Position numbers and translations under genes: made by a program. The notes below the pieces were generated by a model. That model made no database searches. It had not been told where the DNA came from and saw only the letters and a list, made by a program, of their open reading frames with translations. A stretch of DNA of 64,000 nucleotides from Sabellastarte sp. h YS-2021. Taxonomy: Eukaryota; Annelida; Polychaeta; Sabellida; Sabellidae. The stretch spans positions 126,057,530 through 126,121,529 of the forward strand of contig OZ024931.1 in NCBI GenBank assembly GCA_964017235.1. Reading direction: 5' to 3'. Positions 1,659 to 63,508 of this stretch are shown piece by piece. Position 1 is the first letter of the stretch. Every line of letters starts with the position of its first letter.

Positions 1659-3869
1659 ATTACATATTATTTTTGCTTTTTCCGCCATCCGGCGTCACAC
1701 TTGGTTTCCAGACATTTTAGGCAACATTTCTTATCCTATCTTTACCAAATTTGGCATGCAGGTTTATTGGGTTAATAGCTTGTATGGGATTGCTTTTGGT
1801 GATGATAGCTCTATAGCTAACTGAGTAATAGCTACTTTGCTACTTTTGAGTATCTCTTTGGTTTCCAGACATTTTAAGGAATGCTATTAAGCCTATCTTT
1901 CTGAAATTTGGTATGGAGGTTCATTGGATTAATAGCTTGTATGGGATTGCTTTTGGGGGGAATCGCTTCATAGATCAGTGAGTAATTAATTAAATAAATG
2001 AGTAATTGGCTATTTTGAGTACTGAAAAAGGCAAATGTGCTCATATCTCCTAAAGCGTGCGAGATAGAGCGATTTCGTCGAAATTTTCGACCCATAGGGT
2101 ATCTAAGGAATGTACTCTTTGCAATTTTCAAAAAATTTTCCCCTCTGAGCTTTGTACTCTTGGCAATTTTTACAAAATTTTCCCCTCCCCCAAAATGGCA
2201 GCCATTTTGAATTTTCGAATTTTTGCCCAAAATGAAAAAACACAAATTTGCTTCTATCTCCTTAACCGTGCGAGATAGAGCGATTTCGTCGAAATTTTCA
2301 ACCCACAGGGTATTTAAGGAATGTACTCTTTGCAATTTTCAAAAAATTTTCCCTCCCCAAAAATGGCGGCCATTTTGAATTTTCAAATTTTTTGCCCCAA
2401 AATGGCAAAACACGAATTTCCTTCTATCTCCTTAACCATGCGAGATAGAGCGATTTCGTCGAAATTTTCAACCCACAGGGTATCTGAGCAATGTACTCGT
2501 GGCAATTTTCAAAAAAATTTTCCCCTCCCCAAAAATGGCGGCCATTTTGAATTTTCGAATTTTTGACAAAAATGGCAAAACACAAAATTGCTTGTATCTC
2601 CTTAACCGTGCGAGATAGAGCGATTTCGTCGAAATTTTCAACCCATAGGGTATCTGAGCATTGTACTCTTGGCAATTTTTACAAAATTTTCCCCTCCCCA
2701 CATATGGCGGCCATTTTGAATTTTCGAATTTTTGCCCAAAATGGAAAAACACAAATTTCCTTCTATCTCCTTAACCGTGCGAGATAGAGCGATTTCGTCG
2801 AAATTTTCAACCCACAGGGTATTTAAGGAATGTACTCTTTGCAATTTTCAAAAAATTTTCCCCTCCCCAAAAATGGCGGCCATTTTGAATTTTCAAATTT
2901 TTTGCCCAAAAATGGCAAAACACAAATTTGCTTCTATCTCCTTAACTGTGCGAGATAGAGCGATTTCGTCGAAATTTTCAACCCACAGGGTATTTAAGGA
3001 ATGTAATCTTTGCAATTTTCAAAAAATTTTCCCCTCCCAAAAAATGGCGGCCATTTTGAATTTTCGAATTTTGGCCAAAAATGGCAAAACACAAATTTGC
3101 TTCTATCTCCTTAACCGTGCGAGATTGAGCGATTTCGTCGAAATTTTCAACCCACAGGGTATTTATGGAATGTACTCTTTGCAATTTTCAAAAAATTTTC
3201 CCCTCCCCAAAAATGGCGGCCATTTTGAATTTTCGAATTTTTGCCCAAAATGGCAAAACACAAAATTGATTCTATCTCCGTAACCGTGCGAGATAGAGCA
3301 ATTCGTCAAAATTTTTGACCCACAGGGTATCAAAGAAATGTACTCTTGGCAATATTCAAAAAATTATCCCCTCCCCACATATGGCGGTCATTTTGAATTT
3401 TCGCCCAAAATGGAAAAACACAAATTTCCTTCTATCTCCTTAACCGTGCAAAATATAGTTATTTCGTTGAAATTTTCGACCCATAGGGTATCTAAGAAAT
3501 GTACTCTTGGCAATTTTCAAAAAATTTTCCTCTTCCCAAAAATGGCGGCCATTTTGAATTTTCGAATTTTTGCCAAAAATAGAAAAACAGAAATTTGCTT
3601 CTATCTTCTTAACCATGCAAAATTCGTCAAAATTTTCGACCCAACCAATGCAAAAAGGCATGAAGCTGAAATAATTTACATGTACACTAATAAATATTTA
3701 AGCATCATTGATATATTTTACAAATGAAACAGGGTCTTGTAAGACTACTGTACAATTTTGGCAAAAGGTTCATGGGGTGGACATTACACATGATAATGTG
3801 TGTTCTTCTGTGCTATCCTGTTTCTATTCATATGTCACAGCTACTATCAACAGGGCGTCCTATTTCTAG
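1659..3869 (+). mobile_element. Helentron-like non-autonomous element, copy A (same family as B and C), 5' end eroded
   Basis: The 5' palindrome present in copies B and C is missing, but the following CATATTATTTTTGC and a reduced GC-rich leader (near 1680-1697) align with them. The body at about 2040-3650 holds around nine copies of the 169 bp monomer with GCGAGATAGAGCGATTTCG and AAAATGGCGGCCATTTT. The 3' end has GGTGGACATTACACAT, a hairpin ACACAT-GATA-ATGTGT (3786-3801) and terminal CTAG (3866-3869) followed by T. No protein is encoded. Copy A is more divergent than B and C and so is the oldest of the three. Confidence 0.75.
2040..3650 (+). repeat. Tandem array of 169 bp monomers in copy A (about 9 units)
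   Basis: The phrase GATAGAGCGATTTCG recurs at about 2065, 2277, 2447, 2616, 2785, 2954, 3124 (diverged) and 3293, mostly at 169-170 bp spacing. Each unit carries one near-palindromic AAAATGGCNGCCATTTT. Short open frames occur in several frames because of the repeat; none is a gene. Confidence 0.85.
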
Positions 3870-5013
3870 TTACTGTAACACGTCATCTTTAGTCAGCACA
3901 CAGTATCAAGAAAACGAGGGAAATGTGGCAAATATGAATATTCATGAGCAAAGTGAAATGTGTTGACCTCATTATTGGACTGCAGATAAGCTACATCTAC
4001 ATTTGTTTGTTTCTCTGGGATTGGGTTGAAAATAAAGTTCAAACAGCGGGTTGAAAGGTGAAACATCTTTAAAAAAGTGACTTGAAACATTTCTAGGGTC
4101 CAAATGTCTGGTAATTCCAATATTTTATTAGAAATGCTGTTTAATGATTTTTATTTACTCAGATGTAAGCAAAATAGCAATTTAGAAGTAATATATTGTC
4201 TCCTACCACACATCTGGATTTACTTATGAATATTCATGTCTTCCCGGTTAACCATGTTTCTGTTAAGCATGGAAATAAAGCACTACATTATTGCCACAGA
4301 AATGCGACTTTAGTCTCACTTTTATGCATGGCGGTAGTTGGTAGAAAGGGCAACAGGGAAGTAAAGCAGAAAAGAACTTAGGTTGAAACAGTTGGCATAA
4401 CGTGACAGCCGGGTAGTTGCTTGCATTAACCATTGACCAACTGGTTAACTGTTCTGAGGTGTAGCATTCCTGAGGAAGTGCCAAAATTGTCGCAAGGCCA
4501 TGTGCCCTCAATGTAAACAAACAATATGGCGGATTGTGAGATGCTAGAAATTAGTATCCAGTGATAAGTGGTAGCAGACAGTATATACAGGAAAATAGTT
4601 AACTAGTTCGACAGTATTGGCATTGACTAGTGCTTTGGTAACCAAATATTTGGTAAGCACAGTTAATTGCGTCAGCCTTGTAGCGAGCAATAAAATACCA
4701 CATTTTGTGCAAACTGTTGTAAATTGCTACTTGTAAGTGATCATTTTTAAATCTTAATTTATGGTATGTACTGCAATGTGTGTATCACCCGGATTGCATC
4801 AAGTAAACAGATAAAGCAGTTTTGGTTCATTTGGGGAATGAGATGGAGCCCGATTAACATTTTCACAATATAATGATACCACTAATTAGTATATGATGTG
4901 TTCAACTGAGGGTAAAGTTTATATTGTAACATCCTAGATGAACTTGAATTGCTTTCATGCCTAGCAGGCCATTTGAAAAATTTATCAATTTTTTCTTTGT
5001 ATGTTATTTACAG
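3870..5013. other. Intron DNA before exon A
   Basis: About 1.1 kb of AT-rich sequence with no recognisable element or exon apart from the acceptor tract TTATTTACAG before exon A. A 2-3 bp-level check for terminal repeats found none. Confidence 0.5.
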
Positions 5014-5147
5014 CGTGAAGGTATGTCCAAGTACAACAAAATCTATGAATTTGACTATAATCTGATGAATCAGAATGTTACTATGGTGATGACATCAGTG
5101 TCGGGTCACCTGCTGAATAATGACTTCAGTGGTCAATACAAGCATTG
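5014..5147 (+). CDS. TOP3A: TOP3A exon A (first visible coding exon)
   Basis: The exon reads [16 protein letters not shown]... and ends at W, with TG of the tryptophan codon before the donor GTAAGT. It starts after TTTACAG in phase 0. The stretch [11 protein letters not shown] is a hallmark of the Toprim region of type IA topoisomerases. It is 134 bp, 44 codons plus 2 bases, and matches the segment that follows the start of the Toprim fold in animal TOP3A. Confidence 0.93.
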
Positions 5148-8100
5148 GTAAGTGAATGTTAGTAAAATGAAGTTTACATAAAGATTTAAAGTTTGGTTTT
5201 ACAATTATGCATGTAATCTGATCCTTGAATCTCAAATTAAGGGACCCGTTAATATTTTTATGAGTAAGCAGTCAGCACTAGTCATAATGTCACCAAATTA
5301 TTAGTTTGTGGTGATTATATACAACATAAACTGTTATTTTACAGTGACGTATTCTTTCTTTGTCATATGTTTCTGCATATATTATAACATAAAGTTATCA
5401 TCAGACCTGGGCGAATACTTTGAAGAGTATTCAAATGTGAATATTTCCCGTTTTGTTGAATAAAAATATGAATGCAATTGCAACAATTTGAAGACTGTTT
5501 GAATATGAAAACTTTTGCATAGTACTCAAATACATTTATGATAACTTATCATTATAAATTTATAAACTTTTACAGAAACCTTTGCATCATGATTGTCTAA
5601 ATTAGGGATCAGTCTTTTTTGAGAGTAAATTTACCCCCATTTTGGTGTAAAAATGAATTAAAAAACACTTTCATTTCTGGGAAAGTACACCAGTATATGT
5701 AGGTGCTGGGAAAATTATACTTACCTGAAGTGTCAAAGCTGACACACAGTTACACATGCTAAAACTCACCAGAATTTATAAAATGTACCTCTTAAATATA
5801 TACCTTCAAATTACATTGTAGAGTTGTAGAAGTGTTTCAGTTTTTGAAACTTTGAGTTATTTGTAAAATAATGACACAGTTTATGTGGTACTTTTTTGGG
5901 CTAATTCTGCTGTGTATTTACAGGAACAGCTGCAGCCCTGTTACTCTCTTTGATGCACCTGTGGAAAAGTTCTGTCCTCAAAATTTTGTGGACATCAAGG
6001 TAGACATTTAATCCAATATCTATACAGATATCCATTTTGTAAAGATCTTAGATTCGGCTTTATATTCAAGCCATAGTTTAATGTGGATATTTTTCGATAG
6101 AATGTATTATTATGTCCACCCCCCTGGGGGGTGGATATATTATTTTTGCTTTTTTCGCCGTCCGATGTCCGATGTCCGGCGTCCGGCGTCCGATGTCCGG
6201 CGTCACGCATGGTTTCCGCTCATTTAAAGGAAAAGTATTAGAGCTATTGTCACCAAATTTGGTATGCAGGCTTATTGGGTCAGTAGCTTGCTTGGGATTG
6301 CTTTTGGCTGTTGTACCTCTTTTGCTTACTGAGTAATACTTAAGTACAGCTATTTTCAGTACCCATTGGTTTCCGTGCATTTAAGCCAAAATAATTAAAG
6401 ATATTTTACTACAATTTTGAATACAAGATTGTTATGTCCATAGCTCGCTTGGTATTGCATTTGGGACTGATAGCTTTGTCAGTACATGAGTAATAGCCAT
6501 TTAGGTACTTCATTGTGTATTTTCAGTACTACTTTTGAGTAATTTGCTAATATCTCAGAAACCGTGTGAGATAGAGCGATTTCGTCGAAATTTTCGACCC
6601 ACAGGGTATTTAAGGAATGTAATATTTGCAATTTTCAAAAAATTTTCCCCTCCCCAAAAATGGCGGCCATTTTGAATTTTCGAATTTTTGCCAAAAATGG
6701 CAAAACACAAATTTGCTTCTATCTCCTTAACCGTGCGAGATAGAGCGATTTCGTCGAAATTTTCGACCCACAGGGTATCTAAGGAATGCAATCTTTGCAA
6801 TTTTCAAAAAAATTTTCCCCTCCCCAAAAATGGCGGCCATTTTGAATTTTCGAATTTTTGCCAAAAATGGCAAAACACCAATCTGCTTCTATCTCCTTAA
6901 CCGTGCGAGATAGAGCGATTTCGTCAAAATTTTCGACCCACAGGGTATCTGAGCATTGTACTCTTGGTAATTTTAAAAAAATTTTCCCCTCCCCAAAAAT
7001 GGCGGCCATTTTGAATTTTCGAATTTTTGCCAAAAATGGCAAAACACAAATTTGCTTCTATCTCCTTAACCGTGCGAGATAGAGCGATTTCGTCGAAATT
7101 TTCGACCCACAGGGTATCTAAGGAATGCAATCTTTGCAATTTTCAAAAAAATTTTCCCCTCCCCAAAAATGGCGGCCATTTTGAATTTTCGAATTTTTGC
7201 CAAAAATGGCAAAACACCAATCTGCTTCTATCTCCTTAACCGTGCGAGATAGAGCGATTTCGTCAAAATTTTCGACCCACAGGGTATCTGAGCATTGTAC
7301 TCTTGGTAATTTTAAAAAAATTTTCCCCTCCCCAAAAATGGCGGCCATTTTGAATTTTCGAATTTTTGCCAAAAATGGCAAAACACAAATTTGCTTCTAT
7401 CTCCTTAACCGTGCCAGATAGAGCGATTTCGTCAAAATTTTCGACCCACAGGGTATCTGAGCATTGTGCTCTTGGTAATTTTTACAAAATTTTCCCCTCC
7501 CCAAAAATGGCGGCCATTTTGAATTTTCGAATTTTTGCCAAAAATGACAAAACACTAATTTGCTTCTATCTCCTTAACCGTGCGAGATAGAGCGATTTCG
7601 TCGAAATTTTCGACCCACAGGGTATCTGAGCATTGTGCTCTTGGTAATTTTCCAAAAATTTTCCCCTCCCCAAAAATGGCGGCCATTTTGAATTTTCGAA
7701 TTTTTGCCAAAAATGGCAAAACACTAATTTGCTTCTATCTCCTTAACCGTGCGAGATAGAGCGATTTCGTCGAAATTTTCGACCCACAGGGTATCTAAGG
7801 AATGCAATCTTTGCAATTTTCCAAAAATTTTCCCCTCCCCAAAAATGGCGGCCATTTTGAATTTTCGAATTTTTGCCAAAAATGGCAAAACACAAATTTC
7901 CTTCTATCTCCTTAACCGTGCCAGATAGAGCGATTTCGTCAAAATTTTCGACCCACAGGGTATCTGAGCATTGTACTCTTGGTAATTTAAAAAAAATTTT
8001 CCCCTCCCCAAAAATGGCGGCCATTTTGAATTTTTGAATTTTTGCCAAAAATGGCAAAACACAAATTTGCTTCTATCTCCTTAACCGTGCCAGATAGAGC

Positions 8101-40579: not shown

Positions 40580-40610
<31 letters not shown>

Positions 40611-52600: not shown

Positions 52601-53128
52601 TGAAAATAATGAATGCCTATGTCATATTTTGAAAAGTATGACTTCAGTTATATTTATGGTGCATCCATTTAGCTAAGTGTAGTGTTTCTTTAAGAAAGTA
52701 AATTTTCCTGCATATTGCGACAGATATTTTGAATACAATAACACAACTACTGAGATATCCTGATAGCTAAGTTTAGAACAATATCATAGTGATGTATCCC
52801 AACAGTTTATGTGAATGGGCCTCAGATAATTGTTACATTAGGAATCAAGTTGAACAGATCAAAATCAATTTAGGTACAGCTATAACTTTAACCAAGTTAT
52901 GAAAATAAGTCCACAAATGAATTATAGCCCCATTATAAAGCTTTTTATATATATATATGTTTGAGAAACTGCACATAGGGTGAGACATTATGAGAATTTT
53001 TCACAGAAAAATTGACATCAAGGTATAGCATTTGGGCATGACTCTTAGTTGAATAAATATAAATGAAAAAAAACAAATTCTTGGAACGGAAATTGAGTTT
53101 AATTTTTTTACTGATTTTTGACAATGTG

Positions 53129-53167
<39 letters not shown>

Positions 53168-59100: not shown

Positions 59101-62100
59101 TTCTGAGGTAGTATTTGTTACAAAGGACGCGAAGTATGTTGGAAAGATGGCCACAGACATCCTTGATTCCTGTTTATTGTATCCCCGACGCGAAGCGGGG
59201 ATACTATGGATTCATCATCGTTGTCGTCCGCGCCCTCGTCCGCAGAGATTTCTTGTTAGCGACCTACAGTCCACATTTCTTTCCGGATTTCTTGTATATT
59301 TGGCAGGTGGCTTGATATGGTAGAGGACTCGTCACCCTATCTTTTTGGTAGGCTTTATGTCTAAATTAGGCCTGCGGTAGACAAAAATGTCTAAAATGTG
59401 GAATATTGCTTGTTAGCGACCTACAGTCCACATTTCTTTCCGGATTTCTTTCATATTTGGCAGGTGGCTTGATATGGTAGAGGGCTCACCACACTATCTT
59501 TTTGGTAGGCTTTATGTCTAAATTAGGCCTGTGGTAGACAAAAATGTCTAAAATGTGGAATATTGCTTGTTAGCGACCTACAGTCCACATTTCTTTCCAG
59601 ATTTCTTTCATATTTGGCAGGTGGATTGGTATGCTAGAGGACTCGCCACCCTATCTTTTTGGTAGGCTTTATGTGTAAATTAGGCCTGTGGTAGCCAAAA
59701 ATGTCTAAAATGCATTAAAAGTCATGAAATCATGCACTAAATCACTTATAACTTGAAAAGTGTTGCATTTAGAGCATTTTGTTAAAATATGTTATTCAGA
59801 TACTTTTTCATAGCTACAACATGGTGAGTAACTTGGGTGTCTGTCTCAATAGCTAAGTGAGTAATAGCTACTTTGGGGCTTTTCAGTAACTTCCATCATG
59901 AGTAAAATCACTTGTAACTTGAAAACTATTGCATTTACACAATTTTGTATAAATATGTTATTCAGCTACTTTTGGGTCAGCTATAACATAGTAAAATTTC
60001 AGACCTGTAGCTCATGGCATAGCTGAGTAATAGCTACTTTTAGGTTATCACTGTTGAGTAAATTACTTATAACTTCAAAAGTATTACATTTAGAGTATTT
60101 TGTTTCAATATGTTATTCACCTATTTTGGAGTCAGCTATAACAAAGTGAAGTTCCAGACCTGTGGCTCATTGCATAGCTGAGTAATAGCTACTTTGAAGT
60201 TCACACTGTTGAGTAAATCAGTTGTAGTTGGAAAACTATTGCATTTACAGAAATTTGTGTAAATATGTTATTCAGCTACTTTTGGGTCAGCTATAACATT
60301 GTGAAATTACAGACCTGTAGCTCATGGCACAACTGAGCAATAGCTATTTTCAGGTACTGACTGTTGAGTAAATGACTTGTAACTTGAAAAATATTGCATT
60401 TGGAGTATTTTGTTAAAGTATGTTGTTCACCTACTTTTGGGTCAGCTATAACATCGTGAAATTACAGACTTATAGCTCGTGGCATAGCTGAACAATAGCT
60501 ATTTTCAGGTTCTCACTATTGAGTAAATCAGTTGTAACTTGAAAACTATTGCATTTACAGTATTTTGCTTAAATATGTTGTTCACCTAATTTTGGGTCAG
60601 CTATAACATAGAAAAAATTCAGACATGTAGCTCATTGCATAGCTGAGTAATAGCTACTTTGAGGTTATCACTGTTGAGTAAATCAGTTATAACGTGAAAA
60701 CTATTACATTTACAGTGTTTTGTTTAAATATGTTATTCACATAATTTTTGGTCAGTTATAACAGAGTGAAATTGCAGACCTCTATGTCATGGCATAGCTT
60801 ACCAATATCTACTTTCAGGTTCTCACTGTTGAGTAAATCATTGTATCCACTGGATAGCCGCAGTGTGTAGAGAGATTTCACCATTACCGCTCTAACGAAA
60901 AAAATATTATAGCTATCCTTCTCAAGTTTGCAAGGTATATTAGAGGGTGCACCACAGTATTCTATTGGTAGGCTTTATGTCTAAATTAGGCCTGTGGCTA
61001 AATTACTTGCCTACTAAAAATGAGTAATTCTGCATTTTCTCTAAAAGTATTGCAGATAGCAAATTTTTCTTAAATAACTCATTCACCTACTTTTGGGAGA
61101 GCTTTCACATGCTGAAGTTACCGACCTGTAGGTAATTACTCACCTACTCAAAATGAGTAAATGCGAATTATCTCTAAAAGTATTGCAGATAGCCAATTTT
61201 TCTCAAATAACTCATTCACCTACTTTTGGGAGAGCTTTCACTTGGTGAAGTTTCAGACCCGTAGGTAATTACTCACCTACTCAAAATGAGTAAATGCAAA
61301 TTATCTCTAAAAGTATTGCAGATAGCCAATTTTTGTCAAATAACTCCTTCACCTACTTTTGGGAGAGCTTTCACTTGGTGAAGTTTCAGACCCGTAGGTA
61401 ATTACTCACCTACTGAAAATGAGTAAATGCAAATTATCTCTAAAAGTATTCCAGATAGCCAATTTTTGTCAAATAACTCCTTCACCTACATTTGGGAGAC
61501 CTTTCACTTGGTGAAGTTTCAGACCTGTAGCTAATTATTCACCTACTCAAAATGAGTAAAAAAGCTAATTATCTCTAAAAGTATTGCAGATATCCAATTC
61601 TTATCAAATAACTCATTCATCTACTTTTGGGAGAGCTTTCACATGGTGAAGTTCGAGACCCGTAGGTAATTACTCACCTACTGAAAATGAGTAAATTCAA
61701 ATTATCTCTAAAAGTATTGTACATAGCCAATTTTTCTCAAATAACTTATTCGCCTACTTTTGAGAGAGCTTTCACTTGGTGAAGTTTCAGACCCGTAGCT
61801 AATTATTCACCTACTCAAAATGAGTAAATGCAAATTATCTCTAGAAGTATTGCAGATAGCCAGTATTATTCAAATAACTCATTAATATGAAAACAACTTA
61901 TAGGAAGTCATGGGCTGCAAATCTTTACATGTGGTCAGATTTGACCTTGGGCCCCTCCTGCTTATTATTGGTCCTAGAGGTTTGCAATGTGAAAACGACT
62001 TATAGGAAATCATGGGCTGTGAATCTTTTGATGTGGTCAGACTTCACCTTGGGCCTCTGCTACAGGGTCAAATAAGGGTAGCCAAATTTAAAGTGCTTTC

Positions 62101-63508
62101 AGCTTGCTTATTAATGAAAAATGCTGTTTATCTTCTAAACTATGTTACTTGGCCTTTGTCGGTGGATACATCCAGCATCTGGCCACAGATGCGTCCTTAG
62201 TCTAGTTTTTGATGAAGCTGATGACAAATTTTTATAGTCTTGCAACACACCATTACACTGTCTGACTTTTGTTCAAGCATGAATTTGAAACCAAAATTGT
62301 GTAATTTCATACACAGAAGTAGTAGTGTAGAAGATGGTAAACTGGAAACCTATTTTGCCGACTGAAAGACACTGATCTGGTTACTTTCTGTTTTCTTGTA
62401 ATCAAATTTGAATTCCACATATATTTGTTATTTTAACATACTATAATTTCTGTAATAAAAGCCCCCCTTCTAATAATAGCCCCCCCTCCCCCCCTCGCAA
62501 ACTTTTCATATTAGATGTCAGTGACCAAGGGTAAGAAACTTAAGCATATGTTACTCAAATTTAAAATGCCCAATAAATTTCACAGATTTTTAGTCTGAAT
62601 TTTATAAATCATACCATTGTAGCGAAATCGAACATTAAACATACATCAATATTATCTTTTATGTTTTTACAGTAGCTGTGGTTAACCAAGAATATGCAGT
62701 TAAATACCTTACAATTTTCACTTTATCAGCCATGTTTGTTAATCACTACACCTGCAGAGAAAAGTAAACCTTTAAAAATGCTGAAAAGACAAAATAATTG
62801 AATTATTTAAAGGTGGATGTTTCATTGAATGGAATATTTTCATTTTTCTGCATGTTGTTCTAATAAATGTCCCCTCTTTGAAAAAAAATGGATAGCCCCT
62901 GGGCTCTTATTGCAGAAATTACGGTAAGTTTACCAAAATATTCAAAATGTAGTATTTTGTTTAATTTTATCAGTATATTAAACATTTTGTCCTGAAAAGT
63001 CTTCAAAAAGCACATTTCAGTTCATATTTATGTGCAAGTTATGTATCATGTACACATTCGAAAACTTATATCATGGCCTTTAATAAATCACACACACCCA
63101 GTTGTTATCACACACCATTTTTCGTCGACTTTCAACTTTCGGTAACTAGTTCTAACATTTGCATTCAACCACAACACTAAGAAGTTAGCCTTTGATCTTT
63201 GATTCACTTTGGCAGGTTTCTGTGATTAACATGGGCATATGTGCTAGTGTCTCTATTCTCAAGACATTGCTCCTTTACCCATTAGCCACGTGTAAAATTG
63301 CTTTTGACCGCACTTTTTTCAGGGCAACGAGGCACGTTTGTACGAGTTCATCGTAAGACACTTCCTGGCTTGCTGTTCAGAAGATGCCAAAGGTCAGGAG
63401 ACTACGGTGGAGATCTGTGTGAATGAGGAGTACTTCACGGCATCAGGACTCATGATACTGGCACGTAATTACCTGGATGTGTATCCCTACGACAAGTGGA
63501 ATGCAAAG
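5014..63508 (+). CDS. TOP3A: TOP3A gene, internal part: 11 coding exons of DNA topoisomerase III alpha (outline of the whole locus)
   Basis: This outline joins the exons listed separately below. The product is a type IA topoisomerase that cuts one DNA strand through a 5'-phosphotyrosine and passes a single strand. In animals it acts with BLM and RMI1/2 to dissolve double Holliday junctions, and a mitochondrial form separates mtDNA (family knowledge). The spliced exons give 428 codons without a stop. They follow vertebrate TOP3A in order from the segment after the N-terminal Toprim start to the segment after the active site. Intron sizes are 776, 5982, 16274, 260, 3093, 10589, 6959, 2443, 5723 and 5112 bp; all borders are GT/AG. 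The first coding exon (the AEK...-type Toprim start) was not found in 1-5013, so the 5' end is upstream; the C-terminal half with the zinc fingers is downstream. TOP3B is less likely because the residues follow TOP3A-specific stretches such as SKPKSKWRP and RTETNIFP. Confidence 0.93.
5148..5923. other. Intron A-B, with a possible hAT-like fragment
   Basis: The stretch at about 5405-5545 begins ACCTGGGCGAATACTTTG and is rich in inverted GAATA/TATTC words, a style seen at ends of hAT elements. I found no matching far end or target duplication, so this is only a possible fragment. The rest is unremarkable. Confidence 0.3.
5924..5999 (+). CDS. TOP3A: TOP3A exon B
   Basis: After TTTACAG the exon completes the tryptophan codon of exon A and reads [16 protein letters not shown], then PQNFVDIK, matching the CNP-LF-A-..-PENFVDIK stretch of TOP3A. 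The donor is GTAGAC. Its length of 76 bp (1 + 75) restores phase 0. A Helentron-like element begins only 112 bp after the donor. Confidence 0.93.
6160..6208 (+). repeat. 7 bp minisatellite GTCCGRY in the 5' leader of copy B
   Basis: Six 7 bp units alternate GTCCGAT and GTCCGGC and are followed by GTCACGC. The homologous leader in copy C has eight units and copy A about one, so the tract varies by whole units. Confidence 0.85.
6540..10980 (+). repeat. Tandem array of 169 bp monomers in copy B (about 26 units)
   Basis: Monomers repeat every 169-170 bp with the landmarks CTCCTTAACCGTGC, GATAGAGCGATTTCGTC, GACCCACAGGGTATCT and AAAATGGCGGCCATTTT. A 339 bp dimer is duplicated almost exactly (about 6660-6998 and 6999-7337). 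One unit near 9290 is shortened. The array is not coding: 169 is not a multiple of three and frames close every unit or two. Confidence 0.92.
11195..11981. other. Remainder of intron B-C
   Basis: Ordinary AT-rich intron DNA between the CTAG end of copy B and exon C. Nothing further recognised except the acceptor tract before exon C. Confidence 0.5.
11982..12090 (+). CDS. TOP3A: TOP3A exon C (Toprim acidic motif)
   Basis: The exon reads [16 protein letters not shown] followed by [15 protein letters not shown] and DVCKA, and ends one base into the next codon before [15 protein letters not shown] is the DxDxxG Toprim motif that binds Mg2+ in type IA enzymes; both aspartates are present. It is 109 bp and starts after CTCTGCAG. 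Confidence 0.94.
12214..12787. mobile_element. Tc1/mariner-like MITE (574 bp)
   Basis: Inverted ends GTGGATGATCGTAAAGTCGA and GTAGATGATTGTAACGTCGA (right end read on the - strand) match at 17 of 20 positions. Both ends are flanked by TATA, fitting TA target duplication. There is no open frame for a transposase. The flanking TATA is self-complementary, so the exact border is uncertain by 2 bp. Confidence 0.65.
13200..16345 (+). repeat. Tandem array of 155 bp monomers (about 20 units)
   Basis: GGGTCAGCTATAACATAG recurs every 155 bp (for example 13466, 13621, 13776). Units also share ATAGCTGAGTAATAGCTACT and ACTATTGCATTTAGAG. Sub-types alternate (ATTTCGTATAAATATG, TTTTGCTTAAATATG and TTTTGTTTCAATATG forms), suggesting local duplication of unit blocks. 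Non-coding. Confidence 0.9.
16345..17165 (+). repeat. Tandem array of 146 bp monomers (about 6 units)
   Basis: GCTTATAACTCGCTTATTAT recurs at about 16455, 16601 and 16747 (146 bp apart), with AAATCATGGGCTGGGAATCT and CCCCTCCTTCAAGGTCAAA in each unit. The same monomer appears in element 5 near 61886-62115. Confidence 0.88.
17884..18990 (+). repeat. 169 bp monomers, D-type variant (about 6.5 units)
   Basis: Units carry CTTATATCTCGAAAACCGTG, CTAGATAGAGCGATTTCGAC, CAGGGTATCTCTGCAGAGTA and AAAATGGCGGCCATTTTGAA. They are clearly homologous to the 169 bp monomers of copies A-C but form their own subgroup (CTAGATAG and TCTCTGCAGAG instead of CGAGATAG and TCTAAGGAATG). Confidence 0.88.
18990..23515 (+). 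repeat. Tandem array of 133 bp monomers (about 34 units)
   Basis: GAGAGCTTTCACTTGGTGAA recurs every 133 bp (for example 19795 and 19928). Units share ACTCACCTACTCAAAATGAG and AAGTATTGCAGATAGCCAAT. A ten-unit block of 1,330 bp occurs twice in direct order (20041-21370 and 21371-22700). The array is bounded on both sides by 169-type sequence. Non-coding, no spacers of CRISPR type. Confidence 0.93.
20041..22700 (+). repeat. 1,330 bp higher-order repeat (10 x 133 bp), two copies
   Basis: Private variants recur exactly 1,330 bp apart: GCGATTCATC at 20391 and 21721, TCACCTACTGAAAATG near 20500 and 21830, an extra T in CTAATTTACTC near 21026 and 22356, and GTAAAGTATT at 21203 and 22533. Identity looks almost complete by eye, so the duplication is recent. 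Confidence 0.9.
23823..27915 (+). mobile_element. Helentron-like non-autonomous element, copy C (4.09 kb), nested in element D
   Basis: It has the same 5' palindrome, eight-unit 7 bp minisatellite and leader as copy B; the leader to about 24270 is almost identical to 6112-6545. About 20 monomers of 169 bp follow, then the 3' block (27700-27915), almost identical to copy B, with hairpin 27839-27854 and CTAG 27912-27915. The flanks are element D sequence on both sides, with AATT on the left and T-run on the right and no obvious target duplication. Its closeness to copy B marks it as recently active. Confidence 0.85.
24270..27700 (+). repeat. Tandem array of 169 bp monomers in copy C (about 20 units)
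   Basis: Same monomer as in copy B, with local variants (TGAGGAGTGTACTCTTTGC is frequent here, while TGAGCATTGTACTCTTGG is frequent in copy B). Unit starts spaced 169 bp, for example near 24751, 24920, 25089 and 25258. Confidence 0.92.
28128..28364. other. End of intron C-D
   Basis: Ordinary intron sequence of 237 bp with the polypyrimidine tract and TTTTCAG before exon D. Nothing else seen. Confidence 0.5.
28365..28416 (+). CDS. TOP3A: TOP3A exon D (52 bp micro-exon)
   Basis: A short exon between TTTTCAG and GTGAGT. With one base from exon C it reads [17 protein letters not shown] plus two bases. It matches the [15 protein letters not shown] stretch of vertebrate TOP3A. The 16 kb intron before it is filled by mobile elements; the intron after it is only 260 bp. 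The exon is easy to miss because of its size, but both phases agree with its neighbours. Confidence 0.92.
28677..28768 (+). CDS. TOP3A: TOP3A exon E
   Basis: The exon follows TTATATAG, completes a glutamate codon, then reads [18 protein letters not shown] and [12 protein letters not shown], ending one base before GTAAAC. This matches the TOP3A stretch with [17 protein letters not shown]. Length 92 bp (1 + 90 + 1). Reading past the donor gives a run ending in intron codons, which is not coding. Confidence 0.93.
28769..29266. other. Start of intron E-F
   Basis: About 0.5 kb of AT-rich intron DNA with no element recognised before element E begins. Confidence 0.5.
29267..31134 (+). mobile_element. 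Helentron-like non-autonomous element E (1.87 kb), same termini as D
   Basis: The 5' palindrome AAGCGTCCC-TGA-GGGCGCTT is like that of element D, followed by a GC-rich leader (CGCCACCGCCGCCGCTGCCG). The body is an array of about 157 bp monomers (29730-31025) unrelated at most positions to D's. The 3' end has GGGACGCTT (31098-31106), hairpin GCTTTTG-TTAG-CAAAAGC and terminal CTAG (31131-31134) before T. Several C-runs occur in each unit. No coding capacity. Confidence 0.8.
29730..31025 (+). repeat. Tandem array of about 157 bp monomers (8 units) in element E
   Basis: TATGGGTCAAACTGGGGTCA recurs at 156-159 bp steps. Units share ATATCTCCTTTATTGTTGCT and AGTCTAAATAGCCGGTCAGT. C-runs of variable length before TTATGGG account for the length variation. 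Confidence 0.88.
31135..31861. other. End of intron E-F
   Basis: AT-rich intron DNA. Near 31640-31720 there is a loose inverted pairing of ATGATGATATC-like words but no clear element ends. Acceptor CTTGTAG before exon F. Confidence 0.4.
31862..32032 (+). CDS. TOP3A: TOP3A exon F
   Basis: After CTTGTAG the exon completes G and reads [18 protein letters not shown], then [20 protein letters not shown] and [11 protein letters not shown]. It matches TOP3A in the region between the Toprim domain and the gate domain; [14 protein letters not shown] is a conserved type IA motif. 171 bp, donor GTATGT, ending one base into the next codon. Confidence 0.95.
32067..32486. mobile_element. hAT-like MITE, diverged copy
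   Basis: This segment aligns along its length with the MITE at 33092-33512: GTCGATTATTC near 32096, GGTAAGAATAACGGTGTT near 32211, AATATGGCGGTAG near 32267 and CTAATCGTCCAC near 32469. The ends are TAGTGAGTGGAATTGCC and ...CGTCCACATACTA. A target duplication is not clear (TAATAT flanks both sides). No coding capacity. Confidence 0.6.
32810..33055. repeat. Three tandem units of about 80 bp with C-rich core
   Basis: AGAAGTGT followed by a TTGG(G)GAGAC word and a CCCCAACCCCC run starts at about 32812, 32890 and 32970. Each is followed by an AT-rich half (TTTAAGAATTAT in two of them). The last unit has an expanded C-run. Confidence 0.7.
33092..33512. mobile_element. hAT-like MITE with 8 bp target duplication (421 bp)
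   Basis: Flanked on both sides by GTTAAAGT (33084-33091 and 33513-33520), an exact 8 bp duplication typical of hAT. The ends are TAGTGTTGGGAATCG and, on the other strand, TATTGGGTGGACGATT. The inside holds GATCGA/ATCGAT words near both ends and no transposase frame. Confidence 0.75.
33680..34467 (-). pseudogene. Decayed Merlin-family (ISXO2/IS1016-like DDE) transposase
   Basis: On the - strand, 34258-33962 reads a stretch with [19 protein letters not shown] and then VVDWYSF-like and [14 protein letters not shown], the first catalytic-D block of Merlin transposases (V-IDESKFGK in intact relatives). Upstream, near 34330-34240, [12 protein letters not shown] fits the N-terminal zinc-binding part, and 34467 begins [10 protein letters not shown]. 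Downstream, in other frames, are WVFGGIER (about 33960), IHSDCWKSY and TIESIWHA (about 33720), the rest of the DDE core. The frame is interrupted by frameshifts and stops, so it is dead. Terminal repeats were not located. This family resembles bacterial IS1016 and is found in many animals. Confidence 0.8.
34468..34953. other. Intron DNA between Merlin and the first DIRS element
   Basis: AT-rich. The last 100 bp (34853-34950) begin TAGAGATGGGTCAGTAG, in the style of a hAT end, and may be a fragment cut by the DIRS insertion; no partner end was found beyond 41249. Confidence 0.3.
34954..35143 (+). repeat. Left inverted terminal repeat of the first DIRS element
   Basis: Begins TTTTATTGCGTTAATACATC and is matched in inverse by 41034-41249. 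It contains several ACCGGT/CCGGT words and GACGTC sites. Confidence 0.88.
35268..37257 (+). pseudogene. gag-like region of the first DIRS element (fossil)
   Basis: Begins [14 protein letters not shown]. The N-terminal cysteine/histidine pattern (CGH...C..CRDKG..DD.C...DC.IC) is shared with the gag-like protein of the second DIRS element, then follow a Ser/Lys-rich stretch and a longer region ending in a basic tail. This part is identified by position and by similarity to the other copy. Confidence 0.7.
37560..39440 (+). pseudogene. Reverse transcriptase and RNase H region of the first DIRS element (fossil)
   Basis: Recognised by [46 protein letters not shown] and [12 protein letters not shown], the DIRS-type RT and RNase H signatures. 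The region then continues with [12 protein letters not shown] and [13 protein letters not shown], the connecting part seen in this family before the recombinase. Confidence 0.85.
39450..40490 (+). pseudogene. Tyrosine recombinase region of the first DIRS element (fossil)
   Basis: Shows the tyrosine-recombinase blocks: GSGKRRSEI (first Arg), [10 protein letters not shown] (HxxR) and [19 protein letters not shown] (box with the Tyr). DIRS elements use this enzyme to insert a circular intermediate, without an integrase and without target duplication. Confidence 0.85.
40878..40973 (+). repeat. Internal complementary region of the first DIRS element
   Basis: The first half (GCAATTGTCCATTGGATAGG onward) is complementary to the left end of the element and the second half (to CCTATCCAATGGACA) is complementary to the right end. 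In DIRS this region serves to rebuild both ends through a circular intermediate (family knowledge). Confidence 0.88.
41034..41249 (-). repeat. Right inverted terminal repeat of the first DIRS element
   Basis: Inverse complement of the left repeat with about 26-30 extra bp at the outer edge, as usual in DIRS. I see about one mismatch over the shared part by eye. Confidence 0.88.
41250..42621. other. End of intron F-G
   Basis: AT-rich intron DNA. Near 42505-42535 GTTGCACCCCTAA looks like one end of a hAT element, without a visible partner. The acceptor ATTTCCAG before exon G is the only other feature. Confidence 0.4.
42622..42722 (+). CDS. TOP3A: TOP3A exon G
   Basis: The exon follows ATTTCCAG, completes valine, and reads [20 protein letters not shown] then [13 protein letters not shown] before GTGAGA. 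It aligns with V-FNWKRHRLFNHTACLVLY of vertebrate TOP3A. 101 bp (2 + 99), ending in phase 0. It sits between the two DIRS elements, 1.37 kb after the first and 0.52 kb before the second. Confidence 0.93.
42884..43231. mobile_element. hAT-like MITE (348 bp)
   Basis: Inverted ends TAGGGTAGGGTCGGCAGCAG and, on the other strand, TAGGGCAGAGTCGGTAACAC match at about 15 of 20 positions. Flanks CATAGCAC and CATAAAAC agree at 6 of 8 positions, fitting an aged 8 bp duplication. No transposase frame. The second DIRS element begins about 15 bp after its right end. Confidence 0.6.
43246..43432 (+). repeat. Left inverted terminal repeat of the second DIRS element
   Basis: Begins TTTTATTGCGTAAAATACCC and is matched in inverse by 48711-48918, with about four differences by eye. 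The outer ten bases are the same as in the first DIRS element. Confidence 0.88.
43482..45113 (+). CDS. gag-like protein of the second DIRS element
   Basis: Open frame of 543 codons from the ATG of [11 protein letters not shown]. The N-terminus has a cysteine/histidine-rich pattern ([17 protein letters not shown], then DDVC and DCFVC) shared with the first DIRS element. A Ser/Glu-rich, probably disordered middle and a basic Gly/Arg-rich tail (RGGRGGRRK) follow. In this family the protein is thought to package the RNA; that role is inferred from position and composition. Confidence 0.75.
   Translation: MAEGQIKSKGQKLAARCRHTSFEWDHHRFCLYCREKNKGDDVCVTSKEEDCFVCLQFTADQKKKLQARKAYEKKKSTKETISKEVEDSLLGSEDIQPSQATTSKEKSSNLPSTSSSSTVTNDPLQLILARLEAMQGRIQVLETKTTETATQEVFGETANREDSRSMFATTEEEDHSVVQEEVEQRTHHKRARSLSPHSEQKFPSKEEEIDEDPSYRQFLASIRGLLELSTPEEYKEFPSKIFGSKDRKKKLSVLPMCLPPVEEINARWTELEKKVAGNPSENGERLHSAPFNSDTFLPYTRPNMKFYRSTTSEFSISAPKCQDSFKSICSKSTSAPSYISVPTRQFTTMESVKREHVQVLGFVSHFIRALEKCASNMEDILQSGVANMEDSITKDIEELMSYIQLQYSTIASIERALETVVEASMTMSCNMQLARRDTILKYSAPHLHEHDRNRLRRSGFTSTDLFSPSVPNNVENKYERSHSPKRQKMDSKPIFNSRKGRSDYNSSSFPNTSTKNSFHGQQDNKPQFKPTQSTRGGRGGRRK
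44899..47172 (+). CDS. Reverse transcriptase-RNase H protein of the second DIRS element
   Basis: Open frame of 757 codons overlapping the gag-like frame. Signatures in order are [40 protein letters not shown] and HQYLDDWLL (RT), then [37 protein letters not shown] and NVIADSLSR (RNase H). A family-typical [12 protein letters not shown] and [13 protein letters not shown] part precedes the overlap with the recombinase frame. Confidence 0.92.
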   Translation: MWRTNTNAVIPPKDRRWIQSPFSILEREGLTTIALHFQTHPQRILFMANKITSHNSNPHSPPEEVVGGEGNDYTQEALLPGGRLQLFYKVWQENGCHPRVVHILKHGYEIILKDPIELARHPTIHSGYANRQKQNFLLECVQQMLQKKAVIPVRMSATLGFHSRLFLVPKPGKRWRPVIDLSVLNNHLTIPTFKMETAEVIRNSICKGEWVVSVDLTDAYFHIPIHQRSQNLLRFHVGGRSFQFRALPFGIATAPLEFTRVVKEVKLMLQNRGIRIHQYLDDWLLRAPTRQICMEQSKQLVEFVQELGWVINFKKSELTPTQKFDFLGYRFDLVKGEVLPTEKKWQILKNAIEGLDNSVTTTPRILMSFIGILAALEKTVPMGRLHMRPFQWYLKTHWRYPQSLDKIIPCSQILKKHLIWWKDQKNVLTGSPLHAEEHNLLLFTDASVKGWGAHLGDLTVSGLWSDRETNLHINILELKAVFLAIRSFQSHLLNKRVLVASDNSTVVAYLNKQGGTHSLEMCLMLWRLMAFCHPRAILLRARHIQACLNVIADSLSRRDKVIQTEWSLHPKIFLRICQIWHKPMIDLFATKMNNKLPLYVSPVPDPNAMAVDALNISWEAMDGYVYCPIALIPKVVQKMRSYACQMIVVAPGWPGMSWFWDLIDLSTKPPLFLPHWEWLLKQPFSQKFHQNLPYLNLHVWHLDSRPNHLKNSQAQWQRELRHLRDFHPEGSMNQGGPFLNHGVKRNRWNSNNHLFPQ
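46749..48074 (+). CDS. Tyrosine recombinase protein of the second DIRS element
   Basis: Open frame overlapping the RT-RNase H frame; the first ATG in it is at 46827. It contains [13 protein letters not shown] (N-terminal SAM-like part), [13 protein letters not shown] (first Arg), [16 protein letters not shown], and [19 protein letters not shown] (Tyr box). Members of this family integrate by site-specific strand exchange rather than with a DDE integrase. Confidence 0.88.
   Translation: MGGNGRLCLLSNSSNSQGSPKDEVLCMSNDCGGPRVARDELVLGSHRPFHKTPTVSSTLGVASETTIQSKIPSKSSLSQPSCLASGLETKSPQKFSSTVAERIKAPQRFSSRRVYESRWSIFESWGKEKQVEFEQPSISTIADFLTHLFNEKNLKPTTIAGYRTAIADHLGPAGIDISHSFELNRLIASFHRDRPVKDSGVPSWDLSLVLLALTKPPFEPLKDTPLKLLTFKTVFLMTLASGRRRGEVRAWTFKSLKHKTGWKEVTVAPSSVFLSKNQLASDGPNVVQPVVIPALKPILDSSLSQDMTLCPVRSLRYYVDKTKDLRDGKHLLFVSLKNGFSGDIQRSTISSWIKQTVILAYQESDLETQKLSKVKAHDVLSMAASLAFKGGVSLDQILGACFWKSHTTFTNFYLKDVSWKSKEGAEYSLGSVVSAQHIVHL
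48539..48640 (+). repeat. Internal complementary region of the second DIRS element
   Basis: GCACTAGTGAGGATAAGG onward, through ACGCAATAAAAT, is complementary to the left end; the following half, to TTATCCTCACTAG, is complementary to the right end. Confidence 0.88.
48711..48918 (-). repeat. Right inverted terminal repeat of the second DIRS element
   Basis: Inverse complement of 43246-43432 with an extended outer edge ending AATTTTTACA. Confidence 0.85.
48919..49681. other. End of intron G-H
   Basis: Ordinary intron DNA with no element recognised; acceptor tract TTCTTTTGTAG before exon H. Confidence 0.5.
49682..49756 (+). CDS. TOP3A: TOP3A exon H (25 codons)
   Basis: A 75 bp exon in phase 0 between TTTTGTAG and GTAAGA. 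It reads [19 protein letters not shown] then VALDTV. The [14 protein letters not shown] stretch is specific to TOP3A among type IA enzymes. It precedes the active-site exon. Confidence 0.93.
49757..52199. other. Intron H-I, with a 24 bp perfect palindrome
   Basis: 2.4 kb of intron DNA without a recognisable element. At 50141-50164 there is a perfect palindrome with arms AAATATCAAACA. GTCTTGTCCT/ATCACTTC words repeat loosely near 50225-50290. Acceptor CTTTCAG before exon I. Confidence 0.4.
52200..52380 (+). CDS. TOP3A: TOP3A exon I (catalytic tyrosine)
   Basis: The exon starts after CTTTCAG and reads [20 protein letters not shown], then [20 protein letters not shown], then [10 protein letters not shown]. 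The tyrosine in ISYPRTET is the catalytic residue that forms the 5'-phosphotyrosyl link; the R and T next to it are also kept. 181 bp, ending one base before GTGTGT. The gene therefore looks functional through its active site. Confidence 0.95.
52381..53312. other. Start of intron I-J, low-complexity DNA
   Basis: AT-rich, with (AT)n near 52949-52960, a run of 31 T at 53132-53162 and A-rich tracts to 53227. No gene or element end recognised before the LINE tail. Confidence 0.5.
53427..57233 (-). CDS. LINE ORF2: apurinic-type endonuclease plus reverse transcriptase (1,268 aa)
   Basis: The frame starts at the ATG of [13 protein letters not shown], although it is open 14 codons further. Endonuclease, residues about 12-240: SANCQGL (metal-binding N19), QDTHL at 47-51, GDYN at 148-151 and SDHSP at 235-239. 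Reverse transcriptase, about 480-760: [17 protein letters not shown] (617-623 catalytic D), RQGDP at 675 and FADDT at 717-721. A C-terminal zinc-like CRLC...[10 protein letters not shown] lies near residue 1170. This order is that of L1/Tx1-group ORF2. The usual QETH is QDTH here, a conservative E-to-D change also common in such elements of marine invertebrates. No stops interrupt it, so the copy is young or still active. Confidence 0.92.
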   Translation of the reverse strand: MDTKTMDIPPHKFTLLSANCQGLRTYEKRNDVLSYFKDTNASIVCLQDTHLLESDISSVKNIWPECYLNGVKSNSRGVIILVNNNFEHEVLDISKDEEGNMLQLLIDCGTFKLNLINIYAPNKDDPNFFIKLKQLSQNDKANYVMICGDYNLTLDPTVDCYNYVKVNNPQSRSKVIEMMNDLDLTDSFRNLNPTLKRFSWRKKNPIKQARLDYILTSSSMIDIIDSCAIKSSYRSDHSPVEITISLDSFIRGRGTWKFNNSLLKNKDYLNLINQIIDEEKEKYCVPIYNPTYIKENFNDIFFTIDADLFLEILFLRIRGETIKFASFLKKTQRNQEKNLLQDIAHLENTPQGQFNLTLLEDKKSELENLRKEKVKGQMTRARLQWLNEGEKPTSFFCKLENRNYTEKTMRKLQTDSGSIITNQKSILKEIHKFYSNLFKSRDDQTQNDMAREKISGANLKQVREGQLGNKLSVNELSKVLREMKNNKSPGIDGISAEFLKVFWGKLKFFVTNAINCCYSKGILSTSMRQTVITCLPKGNKDRKLVKNWRPISLLTVVYKLVSSAIAKRLKPLLNDIISEPQSGFISGRSIGDCTRLIYDLMSYTKKHNIPGLLMLIDFEKAFDSVSWNFLYNVLEAFGFDENFINWIKLFNNDIKAYITQCGILSQPIPIERGCRQGDPIAPYLFLLVVEVLSCLIVQSSDICGITIGKTTFKLTQFADDTTLILDGSATSLQSAMNILEIFGELSGLKVNCEKTKLIWIGSEVASQRMLKVSHKLDWGDIQFNLLGIQFSCDLTKLPNLNYQTALQKAKKLINSWQYRYLTPFGKITVIKTLILPKFTHLFMSIPTPLEILNTLHKLLFNYIWDGKPDKVSRDKLCTTIINGGLKMVNIFQFEKSLKINWLKGFFRQDSKPWLKLVLKDINISKFTSLGSQWCLSALSKLNPFWKIVFSYYNSLCLNTKIKTNYDIMCSSIWLNKPVGTERLYLSDWFSNGVHVIGDIINPDGSIISIEEIKHQYGFSPNFLNYITIRTLVKKFIDKTGNGTIYNFPRPHIPVYLRPLLKSCGSRTIYQVFQQNHNISSQNEIKWNSDLNMEPDEISWGIRYRICFHSIEDNSLKWLQYRILHRILGVRDLLFRIKVSDINTCRLCKEHSETIVHLFSECTKSHSLWQNVISWIKSSINLNINLTKNMKILGYTEQGPNFWPLNFILTITRQYIFTKAKDLGQLNIYHLQKLIHKRYTEQETLSTLNGKTNSFQEKWVVWKKIFDFV
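57545..57660 (-). repeat. Two tandem units of about 61 bp upstream of LINE ORF2
   Basis: TTGTATCATTAATTTAGGG and GGATTTCACAACAACCAACA occur twice, about 61 bp apart, with very few differences. The position upstream of ORF2 on its strand suggests a 5' leader of the LINE. Confidence 0.8.
57664..58103. other. End of intron I-J
   Basis: AT-rich intron DNA, nothing recognised beyond the acceptor tract before exon J. Confidence 0.5.
58104..58210 (+). CDS. TOP3A: TOP3A exon J
   Basis: After TTTTAG the exon completes glycine and reads [20 protein letters not shown] then [15 protein letters not shown]. The AHPPIHPT motif is conserved in type IA topoisomerases just after the active-site tyrosine. 107 bp (2 + 105), donor GTATGT, ending in phase 0. 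Confidence 0.94.
58469..59013. mobile_element. hAT-like MITE with exact 8 bp target duplication (545 bp)
   Basis: Flanked by GTGGATGG on both sides (58461-58468 and 59014-59021). The inverted ends are TAGTGTAGGGAT and, on the other strand, TAGTATAGGGAT. AATATCGATCGATC occurs inside both ends. There is no transposase. It lies in intron J-K, 260 bp after exon J. Confidence 0.82.
59252..59710 (+). repeat. Three tandem units of 157 bp in element 5
   Basis: CTTGTTAGCGACCTACAGTC starts at 59252, 59409 and 59566; each unit also has TTTTTGGTAGGCTTTATGT and AAATTAGGCCTG. This monomer is found only here, apart from a partial copy near 60975-61010. Confidence 0.9.
59710..60850 (+). repeat. 155 bp monomers in element 5 (about 7 units)
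   Basis: GGTCAGCTATAACA recurs about every 155 bp with ATAGCTGAGTAATAGCTACT. Clearly homologous to the array at 13200-16345 in element 1. Confidence 0.88.
61010..61880 (+). repeat. 133 bp monomers in element 5 (about 6 units)
   Basis: GGGAGAGCTTTCAC recurs about every 133 bp with ACTCACCTACTCAAAATGAG. Homologous to the array at 18990-23515 in element D, but with its own variant GACCCGTAGGTAATTACTC. Confidence 0.88.
62441..62924. mobile_element. Tc1/mariner-like MITE (484 bp)
   Basis: Inverted ends CTATAATTTCTGTAATAAAA and, on the other strand, CCGTAATTTCTGCAATAAGA match at 16 of 20 positions and are flanked by TA on both sides. The stretch just inside the left end has GCCCCCC runs. No transposase frame. 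Confidence 0.75.
62925..63322. other. End of intron J-K
   Basis: Ordinary intron DNA; nothing recognised apart from the acceptor tract before exon K. Confidence 0.5.
63323..63508 (+). CDS. TOP3A: TOP3A exon K (last exon in window)
   Basis: After TTTTTCAG the exon reads [20 protein letters not shown], then [10 protein letters not shown] and [17 protein letters not shown], ending NAK before GTAATG. It follows vertebrate TOP3A closely ([25 protein letters not shown]). 186 bp, 62 whole codons. The gene continues beyond the window. Confidence 0.95.

Follow-up and report, generated by a model that had tools for sequence, protein, structure and literature searches.

The window analyzed here, a 64,000-nt stretch of DNA, contains seven elements that are very probably non-autonomous Helentrons (HINEs), carrying a satellite array as an internal part, with arrays and termini recombined between families. 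The elements fall into at least four families by terminus (A/B/C, 1, D/E, and 5), in line with the preliminary description of this DNA, which had counted four or more kinds of terminus. Their assignment to the Helentron/HINE type is supported by an empty site in the window without target duplication, by ends that are constant in 19 of 19 genomic copies, and by the presence, in this genome, of a similarly organized element encoding Rep, PIF1, and a probable endonuclease.

Layout of the seven elements in the window

All seven elements lie on the + strand and share one order of parts: a palindrome, a GC-rich tract, a variable lead-in, at least one tandem array, an inverted copy of the 5' arm, a hairpin, and an end followed by T. 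Copies of the B/C family elsewhere in the genome were found on both strands, and the uniform orientation in the window is thus a local feature. The single layout claimed for the seven elements was borne out for the order of parts, both in the window and in genomic copies, but not for the CTAG end of element 1. The tandem arrays, which had been claimed throughout, are present in all seven elements as defined by TRF and decomposition into units.

Element A (1659-3869) has indeed lost its 5' palindrome, which had been described as eroded, and consists of a GC tract (1683-1700), a degenerate dimer lead-in (offset 157), a 169-bp array (2026-3643), and a 3' subTIR (3776-3784) followed by the hairpin and CTAG (3866-3869). 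Element B (6109-11194) comprises a palindrome (6112-6138), a GTCCGAT/GTCCGG microsatellite (6157-6208), a lead-in dimer (6210-6529), a 169-bp array (6541-10976; 26 full units), a subTIR (11108-11116), a hairpin (11118-11133), and CTAG (11191-11194). Element C (23822-27915) is nested in the 169-bp array of element D and includes a palindrome (23823-23849), a microsatellite (23868-23934), a 169-bp array (24266-27697; 20 full units), a subTIR (27829-27837), and CTAG (27912-27915). Element D itself (17466-28127), interrupted by C, contains a palindrome (17470-17491), a (GGCTCCGCC)n tract (17513-17557), a lead-in, a 169-bp array (17867-18995), a 133-bp array (18996-23528), further 169-bp units (23622-23821 and 27928-27976), and a subTIR (28067-28075), then the hairpin and CTAG (28124-28127). 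Element E (29263-31134), which belongs to the terminus family of D, has a palindrome (29267-29287), a GCC-rich tract (29299-29330), a lead-in, a 157-bp array (29691-31027), a subTIR (31097-31105), a hairpin (31107-31124), and CTAG (31131-31134).

In element 1 (12805-17450), a palindrome (12807-12836), a GC tract (12839-12880), and a lead-in precede a 155-bp array (13230-16352), a 146-bp array (16354-17169), and a 155 fragment (17170-17211), which are followed by a subTIR (17410-17421) and a hairpin (17422-17441). Element 5 (59174-62205) carries a palindrome (59179-59204), a GC tract (59216-59250), a 157-bp array (59248-59712), an element-1-like lead-in with a 155-bp array (59709-60849), a 157 fragment (60941-60997), a 133-bp array (61001-61883), and 146-bp units (61890-62116), with a subTIR (62162-62170), a hairpin (62175-62192), and CTAG (62202-62205) at its 3' side. 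The family ends are ATGTCCACC and CTAG for B/C, AAGCGTCCC and CTAG for D/E, and GTATCCCCG and CTAG for family 5.

The first, strict version of a scan for this order of parts recovered only elements 1 and D on the + strand, against a null mean of 0.01 and a maximum of 1 in 100 runs. With thresholds loosened after the elements had already been seen, the relaxed scan produced 10 matches on the + strand, namely six real elements (B, 1, D, C, E, and 5) and four spurious matches (two arms in the array of D and two at 51-52 kb), and 0 matches on the minus strand of the whole window; 60 simulated runs averaged 0.37 matches, with no run above 4. Element A was missed because its 5' palindrome is gone, and the inverted copy of the 5' subTIR near the 3' end was recovered in six of the seven elements.

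For each of the 5' palindromes that had been claimed (in B, C, 1, D, E, and 5), at most one of 200 shuffles folded better; the exact 5' starts are uncertain by the length of a T run. A GC-rich tract after the 5' end, also part of the earlier claim, was found in all seven elements: the best 40-mer reaches 62-90% GC in six of them (top 1.4% of the window or rarer) and 55% in A (top 5.2%). The motif, proposed to be functional, has the same position in the coding element described below, but a structural role has little backing from the folds. Shuffles at least as good as the single-strand fold of the tract numbered 152 (B), 183 (C), 17 (D), 197 (E), 50 (1), and 120 (5) of 200, and the fold of the 18-nt remnant in A was equalled or beaten by 3 of 200 shuffles; folding was rejected as a role of the GC tract. 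Apparent loss of the 5' palindrome was observed in three terminus families (window 1655-1680 and the genomic loci L089 and L096), and at L089 the loss falls between direct repeats TTATGTC, which flank the palindrome in element 1.

At the 3' side, the claimed inverted copies and hairpins were seen in the elements, with a hairpin of 3-4-nt loop after the 3' subTIR in all seven. Shuffles folding as well as the whole 3' end numbered 0 for D, 1 for 5, 4 for 1, and 9 for E (of 200 each), and the folds of A, B, and C were unremarkable by this measure (51, 27, and 18 of 200). The arrangement of hairpin and CTAG, whose constancy was to be checked, proved variable, the spacing being 6 nt in E, 9 nt in 5, about 27 nt in D, and 57 nt in B.

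Other features of the window include two elements on the + strand (35133-40490 and 43455-48074) that we name DIRS-like retroelements from their domains, each with a reverse transcriptase and an RNase H-like domain; this second domain is below the cut-off in the second element, and a Phage_integrase match is below the cut-off in the first. On the minus strand, a LINE-like open frame (1294 codons; 53427-57311) encodes an endonuclease and a reverse transcriptase. No lead came from scanning the window against Rfam or for tRNAs, nor from pattern, protein, and DNA scans against viral and phage collections.

Ends and insertion sites of genomic copies

The elements have a high copy number: when the genome (1.79 Gb in 647 contigs) was searched with end queries, each query returned 665-1912 first-look candidates. 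In every search the best 40 of these were scored, a selection biased to the best matches, and the ends reported below may therefore over-run by a few chance bases. For the A/B/C family, the flanks of the three window copies diverge after CTAG, which fixes the 3' end of the family. Among 20 fetched genomic copies of the B/C family, both ends were obtained in 19, the array of the remaining copy extending past the fetched stretch. All 19 read TTAATT before ATGTCC at the 5' end and ATTTCTAG followed by T (CTAG, then T) at the 3' end; since the query contained 5' bases (TTTTTAATT) without the 3' end, the CTAG result is free of this query effect and TTAATT is possibly over-represented. The base before TTAATT was T in 8, G in 7, and A in 4 of these copies (n = 19), and element B has TATT at the corresponding place. 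At locus L012, the 9.8 kb following the 5' end of a B/C copy contain no 3' end.

Among the best 40 matches scored for family 5, all 40 start 3-7 bases before the palindrome at the 5' end (the query began 7 bases before it), and all 39 non-self matches stop 2-13 nt after CTAG at the 3' end. Likewise, the 39 non-self matches among the best 40 for D all stop 5-12 nt after CTAG. For E, TAATT precedes the palindrome in 19 of 20 copies and TTATT in one, and a genome search with its 3' end gave no match, hence no confirmation from other copies. Element 1 behaved differently: 36 of the 39 non-self matches among the best 40 scored end before the last base of the CTAG at 17461-17464, just past CTCTTG, and all 12 fetched copies of its family read CTCTTGTTATG at the 3' junction. 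CTAG was therefore rejected as the 3' end of element 1, which is placed directly past CTCTTG at 17450 (at most 5 nt further), leaving the downstream CTAG outside the element; the 5' end of this family was defined from the window copy alone. Genomic copies thus bear out an end of CTAG followed by T for B/C (19/19) and a match end shortly past CTAG for families 5 and D (39/39 each), but not a CTAG end for element 1. Direct adjoining of D to the terminus of element 1 was likewise rejected, as about 10-15 bases lie between them. At locus L090, a family-1 3' end is followed by 133-type sequence that begins at AGAGCTTTCAC, which is also the starting phase of the 133-bp array inside D (window 18996).

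A canonical Helitron (Helitron1, with 5' TC, 3' CTRR, and A/T insertion) was considered and rejected: CTAG would fit three families, but B/C elements begin TTAATT. The insertion of C into the 169-bp array of D provides an empty site: once joined, the flanks match an intact unit and stay in phase. At the junction the sequence is T-rich, with no target duplication of the kind by which a different transposon class would be recognized. T follows CTAG in 19/19 B/C copies and TTAATT lies upstream in 19/19, the latter partly from the choice of query. These sites also bear on the proposal that the ends belong to a MITE, as bivalve "pearl" elements were first described. The terminal inverted likeness and the small non-coding size agree with that proposal, but the inverted repeat is subterminal and asymmetric, the nested case is without target duplication, head-to-tail copies exist, and a Rep-PIF1-endonuclease element has a similar layout. 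We disfavor the MITE reading and regard it as very improbable.

Under the Helentron reading, a Rep/helicase/endonuclease made elsewhere would nick the T-rich boundary, and rolling-circle replication would copy one strand from the 5' palindrome end through the 3' subTIR and hairpin to the C-T-(A/T)-G end. The copied strand would then be inserted among Ts, leaving the target unduplicated. The satellite array belongs to the interior of the element and varies in length in whole-unit steps. Arrays and termini would have been recombined between families, after which the mosaics would spread as families.

Comparison of B and C outside their arrays revealed 414 identical positions, 0 mismatches, and 29 gap positions on the 5' side and 217 of 218 identical positions on the 3' side. 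The 19 B/C genomic copies contain 11.3-40.2 units, with fractions of.1-.3 in all 19, i.e., they differ by whole-unit steps. For 15 of the 20 units of C, the nearest relative is another C unit and for 5 it is a B unit, the last two matching the last two of B; among 465 units from the 19 copies, the nearest neighbor lies within the same copy in 16% of cases compared to 6% expected. Head-to-tail junctions were found at L018 (B/C) and L081 (family 1), and L089 and L096 look like such junctions lacking the palindrome. Two loci on different contigs, L016 and L019, have identical flanks (100/100 and 300/300) and arrays of 22.3 and 24.1 units, which reflects either a segmental duplication or an assembly effect. 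Four further B/C loci (L010, L011, L021, and L028) have common short flanks of about 36 bases on the left and 24 on the right, with mostly different outer sequence; at L011 these flanks are inverted repeats (TGTCCATTGGATAG), which gives the element the look of a passenger in a small inverted-repeat transposon.

Shared arrays, the 45-bp box, and a coding Helentron

Array families are common to elements with unrelated termini, and segments of one mosaic are found again at other places in the genome. By decomposition, the arrays read 155/146/155 in element 1, 169/133/169 in D, and 157/155/157/133/146 in element 5. The 133 array is 92% alike between D and 5, the 155 array with its lead-in is 90% alike between 1 and 5, the 146 array is common to 1 and 5, and the 169 array is common to A/B/C and D (79-81%). 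Each of the 155, 133, and 146 arrays thus occurs under two terminus families, and element 5 carries four array types. Because the 5' and 3' sides of family 5 were sampled from different loci, they represent half-copies: all 8 of the 5' sides start with 157, and 7 of the 8 switch to element-1-like sequence within 300 bases; among 12 other 3' sides, 10 run from 133 through 146 to the end, one from 155 to 146, and one has 146 alone.

The foreign blocks in these mosaics are abrupt. In D the 169 array stops at phase 99 and resumes at 106 beyond the 133 block, and in element 1 the 155 array stops at phase 17 and resumes at 28 beyond the 146 block. Such blocks in older arrays would be expected if the arrays were ordinary host satellites, captured repeatedly as filler DNA by unrelated Helentron ends, with the sequence box described below being a likeness of chance or composition. 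Units of different families are mostly unalignable beyond this box, which also agrees with capture. However, the interrupted 157 array of element 5 is not resumed in phase, and the box has no match of at least 5 bits in the 36,479 bases of the window outside the elements. Capture of host satellites is a real possibility in our estimation, if somewhat short of an even chance.

The box is a weak motif of approximately 45 bp found in most units, six of the seven array units (for example, TTATATCTC..AAACC..TAGAGC..ATTT at 17898-17942 on the + strand). The "TTATA(A/T)CTC" lead-in, which the preliminary description had presented as a module of every element, is instead part of this box. A box model placed 154 sites scoring 5 bits or more in the elements, every one on the + strand, and most of these are a consequence of training on the same units. 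When the tested family was left out of training, the models outperformed 488 or more of 500 shuffles for 10 of the 11 units and lead-ins, with no match in the 157-bp unit of element 5; in the 133 unit and the lead-in of element 1, the match lies away from the place used in training. This leave-out test is not fully independent, since the 146-bp unit aligns with the lead-in of E (z 9.3) and these two and the 157 unit of E are interrelated. With a units-only model, the box was detected in the lead-ins of D and E (0/300 shuffles each), weakly in those of B (15/300) and C (9/300), and without support in those of A, 1, and 5 (61, 37, and 60 of 300). Decayed dimers make up the lead-ins of A and B (0/300 shuffles), and dimer structure was not seen in those of D, E, and 1, which led us to reject in-register monomers as the nature of the lead-in in all families. 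Conservation of the box within the 169-bp family is nothing special (rank 87 of 167 windows), and its candidacy as the most conserved part of that unit was dropped.

An autonomous Rep-helicase element had been proposed as a partner for these elements. A genome search for the Helitron Rep domain produced 24 matches, and the stretches at eight of them were read. In the copy on C3, the element is 12,266 bases long and has a single open frame of 2245 codons, of whose protein 1889 residues were scanned. DUF6570, Helitron_like_N (PF14214), and PIF1 (PF05970) scored above cut-offs, and Exo_endo_phos (PF03372), at 21.8 bits under a cut-off of 24.5, marks a probable endonuclease. Parts of the copies on C2, C4, and C11 are 95-99% identical to it at the protein level, the C2 copy being in several frames; three other Rep loci are 26-29% identical to the C3 copy, and the stretch at the Rep match of L036 gave no protein match.

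The order of parts in the coding element is a palindrome, a GTCY microsatellite, tandem units of approximately 167 bp, the gene, an inverted copy, and CTCTTG followed by T. In both C3 and C4, the 5' palindrome reads AGGTGGGTTGCG...CAACCCGCCT and recurs as AGGCGGG... 600-764 bases further on, and the microsatellite lies behind the palindrome, with three to four units of 164-187 bp in tandem after it. The two copies share TCATTTTT before the palindrome, which is compatible with a 5' TC. At the 3' ends of C3, C4, and C2, the inverted copy CGCAACCCGCC ... CCCTCTTG is followed by T (CTCTTG, then T), and the flanks diverge afterwards; the 3' hairpin is weak. The C3 copy interrupts an array of the 157 type, similar to the one in E, that continues in phase on the far side of the Helentron. 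A 157-like piece downstream of the C3 gene was discarded as part of the Helentron, as the three-copy comparison puts the Helentron end before this piece, which belongs to the surrounding array.

A coding element of similar layout with Rep, PIF1, and a probable endonuclease is thus present, but its subTIRs differ. The coding copies carry a fifth subTIR sequence (AGGYGGGTTGCG), unlike those of the window families, and in the stretches read at eight of the 24 Rep matches none of the coding copies had the subTIRs of the window elements. The CTCTTG end followed by T resembles the end of element 1, not that of the CTAG families. It is plausible that one transposition machinery serves several families, and the Helentron protein may mobilize HINEs in trans. 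Two neighboring observations concern sequence near Rep genes. Beyond the end of the C3 Helentron, L029 (6880-7120 and 7690-7910) contains tandem pieces with GTTTCCGGACAGTATCTC...TTCAAATTTGGCATG behind GTCGTC-type motifs, lead-in-like in arrangement, with box matches of 7.7, 5.1, and 4.5 bits. At L035, element-1-type sequence (89% over 242 bases) lies in opposite orientation 3' of a Rep gene 29% identical to that of C3.

The tandem units of the coding element raise an alternative to host-satellite capture, in which the box and the array are part of the Helentron replicon and are inherited from coding elements; with a box-bearing array already present in coding elements, arrays would be born within the elements. 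Units of 164-187 bp right behind the palindrome and microsatellite point in this direction, as do the leave-family-out matches, the decayed dimers in the lead-ins of A and B, and the alignment of the 146-bp unit with the lead-in of E. The window box model placed one of two coding unit variants above 1000 of 1000 shuffles, but the second variant had no match and the units-only model was equalled by 12 and 23 of 1000 shuffles. In pairwise comparison with the coding units, the lead-in of D alone matched clearly (1/300 shuffles) and two pieces of element 5 weakly (13 and 16), while the remaining ten pieces from the window (38-300 of 300) fell in a range similar to that of eight control stretches (38-273). 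The likeness of the coding units to the box is thus suggestive, not firm. The partial dependence and off-place matches of the leave-out test, the ordinary conservation of the box in the 169-bp family, and the lead-ins of D, E, and 1 without dimers also count against a replicon origin, which we put forward tentatively as the weaker side of an uncertain question.

Relation to known elements and implications

The layout of oyster HINEs, Helentron-derived elements with a microsatellite and a satellite array, is already published (PMC7492417); the kind of element is thus known and its grammar is not new. In the sections of that work cited here, Cg_HINE of Crassostrea gigas shares with the window elements a 5' subTIR with a complementary inverted repeat, a variable segment, and a central satellite array; GTCY, GTCC, and GTCK microsatellites in several elements; a 3' subTIR, a 3' palindrome, and a T-rich target without duplication; and several unrelated terminus families, at times with two arrays per element (PMC7492417). 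Within the same sections, each satellite cluster has one flank pair, whereas here arrays occur under two terminus families, and array sharing is thus a difference. Nor could an autonomous partner be related to Cg_HINE there, whereas here a coding element has a similar layout with other subTIRs (PMC7492417). With respect to the oyster work as cited, the layout of the coding element and the sharing of arrays between terminus families are the additions, and the weak box of approximately 45 bp in most units also goes beyond it.

In the cited part of a second study, C. gigas Helitron-N elements likewise have end boxes common to several elements with different satellites, and Helitron-N2 and N2C have a common 156-bp segment between microsatellite and central repeats (PMC8268682); ends are shared and arrays differ in that case, whereas here arrays are shared under unrelated ends. 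As described in the main text of PMC4067079, Helentrons, HINEs, and DINE-1 share the Rep-helicase-endonuclease protein, palindromic subTIRs, a 3' stem loop, a T-rich TT target without duplication, and, in some copies, microsatellites or tandem repeats. CTAG appears once in that main text, in a Phytophthora proto-Helentron, whereas three of the four window families end in CTAG. Oyster Helitron-like elements, in the portion of PMC7992393 considered, share the CTAG 3' end and have subTIRs in 257 of 751 cases, a third of these with a 5' inverted repeat. They differ in their TC start and mostly A/T insertion, with a microsatellite in only one of those examined (PMC7992393); in the window, palindrome, GC tract, and CTAG occur together in three families, and B/C copies begin TTAATT. 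Pearl elements and the BIV160/Cg170 satellite family, according to the passages cited from PMC7492417 and PMC5139131, provide bivalve elements with central repeats of approximately 160 bp and related monomers that keep two conserved motifs.

The origin of bivalve satellites and the missing autonomous partner of HINEs are among the questions left open in the cited sections of PMC7492417, and a coding Helentron of similar layout together with shared array modules makes both testable by genome-wide counting. A broader reading, which we consider rather unlikely, is that Helentrons and HINEs form one modular system, in which a box-bearing array would be a constant part of the replicon, present also in the coding element, while arrays are swapped and mosaics amplify. 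If so, these elements would be a source and shuffler of satellites, beyond being carriers of captured ones.
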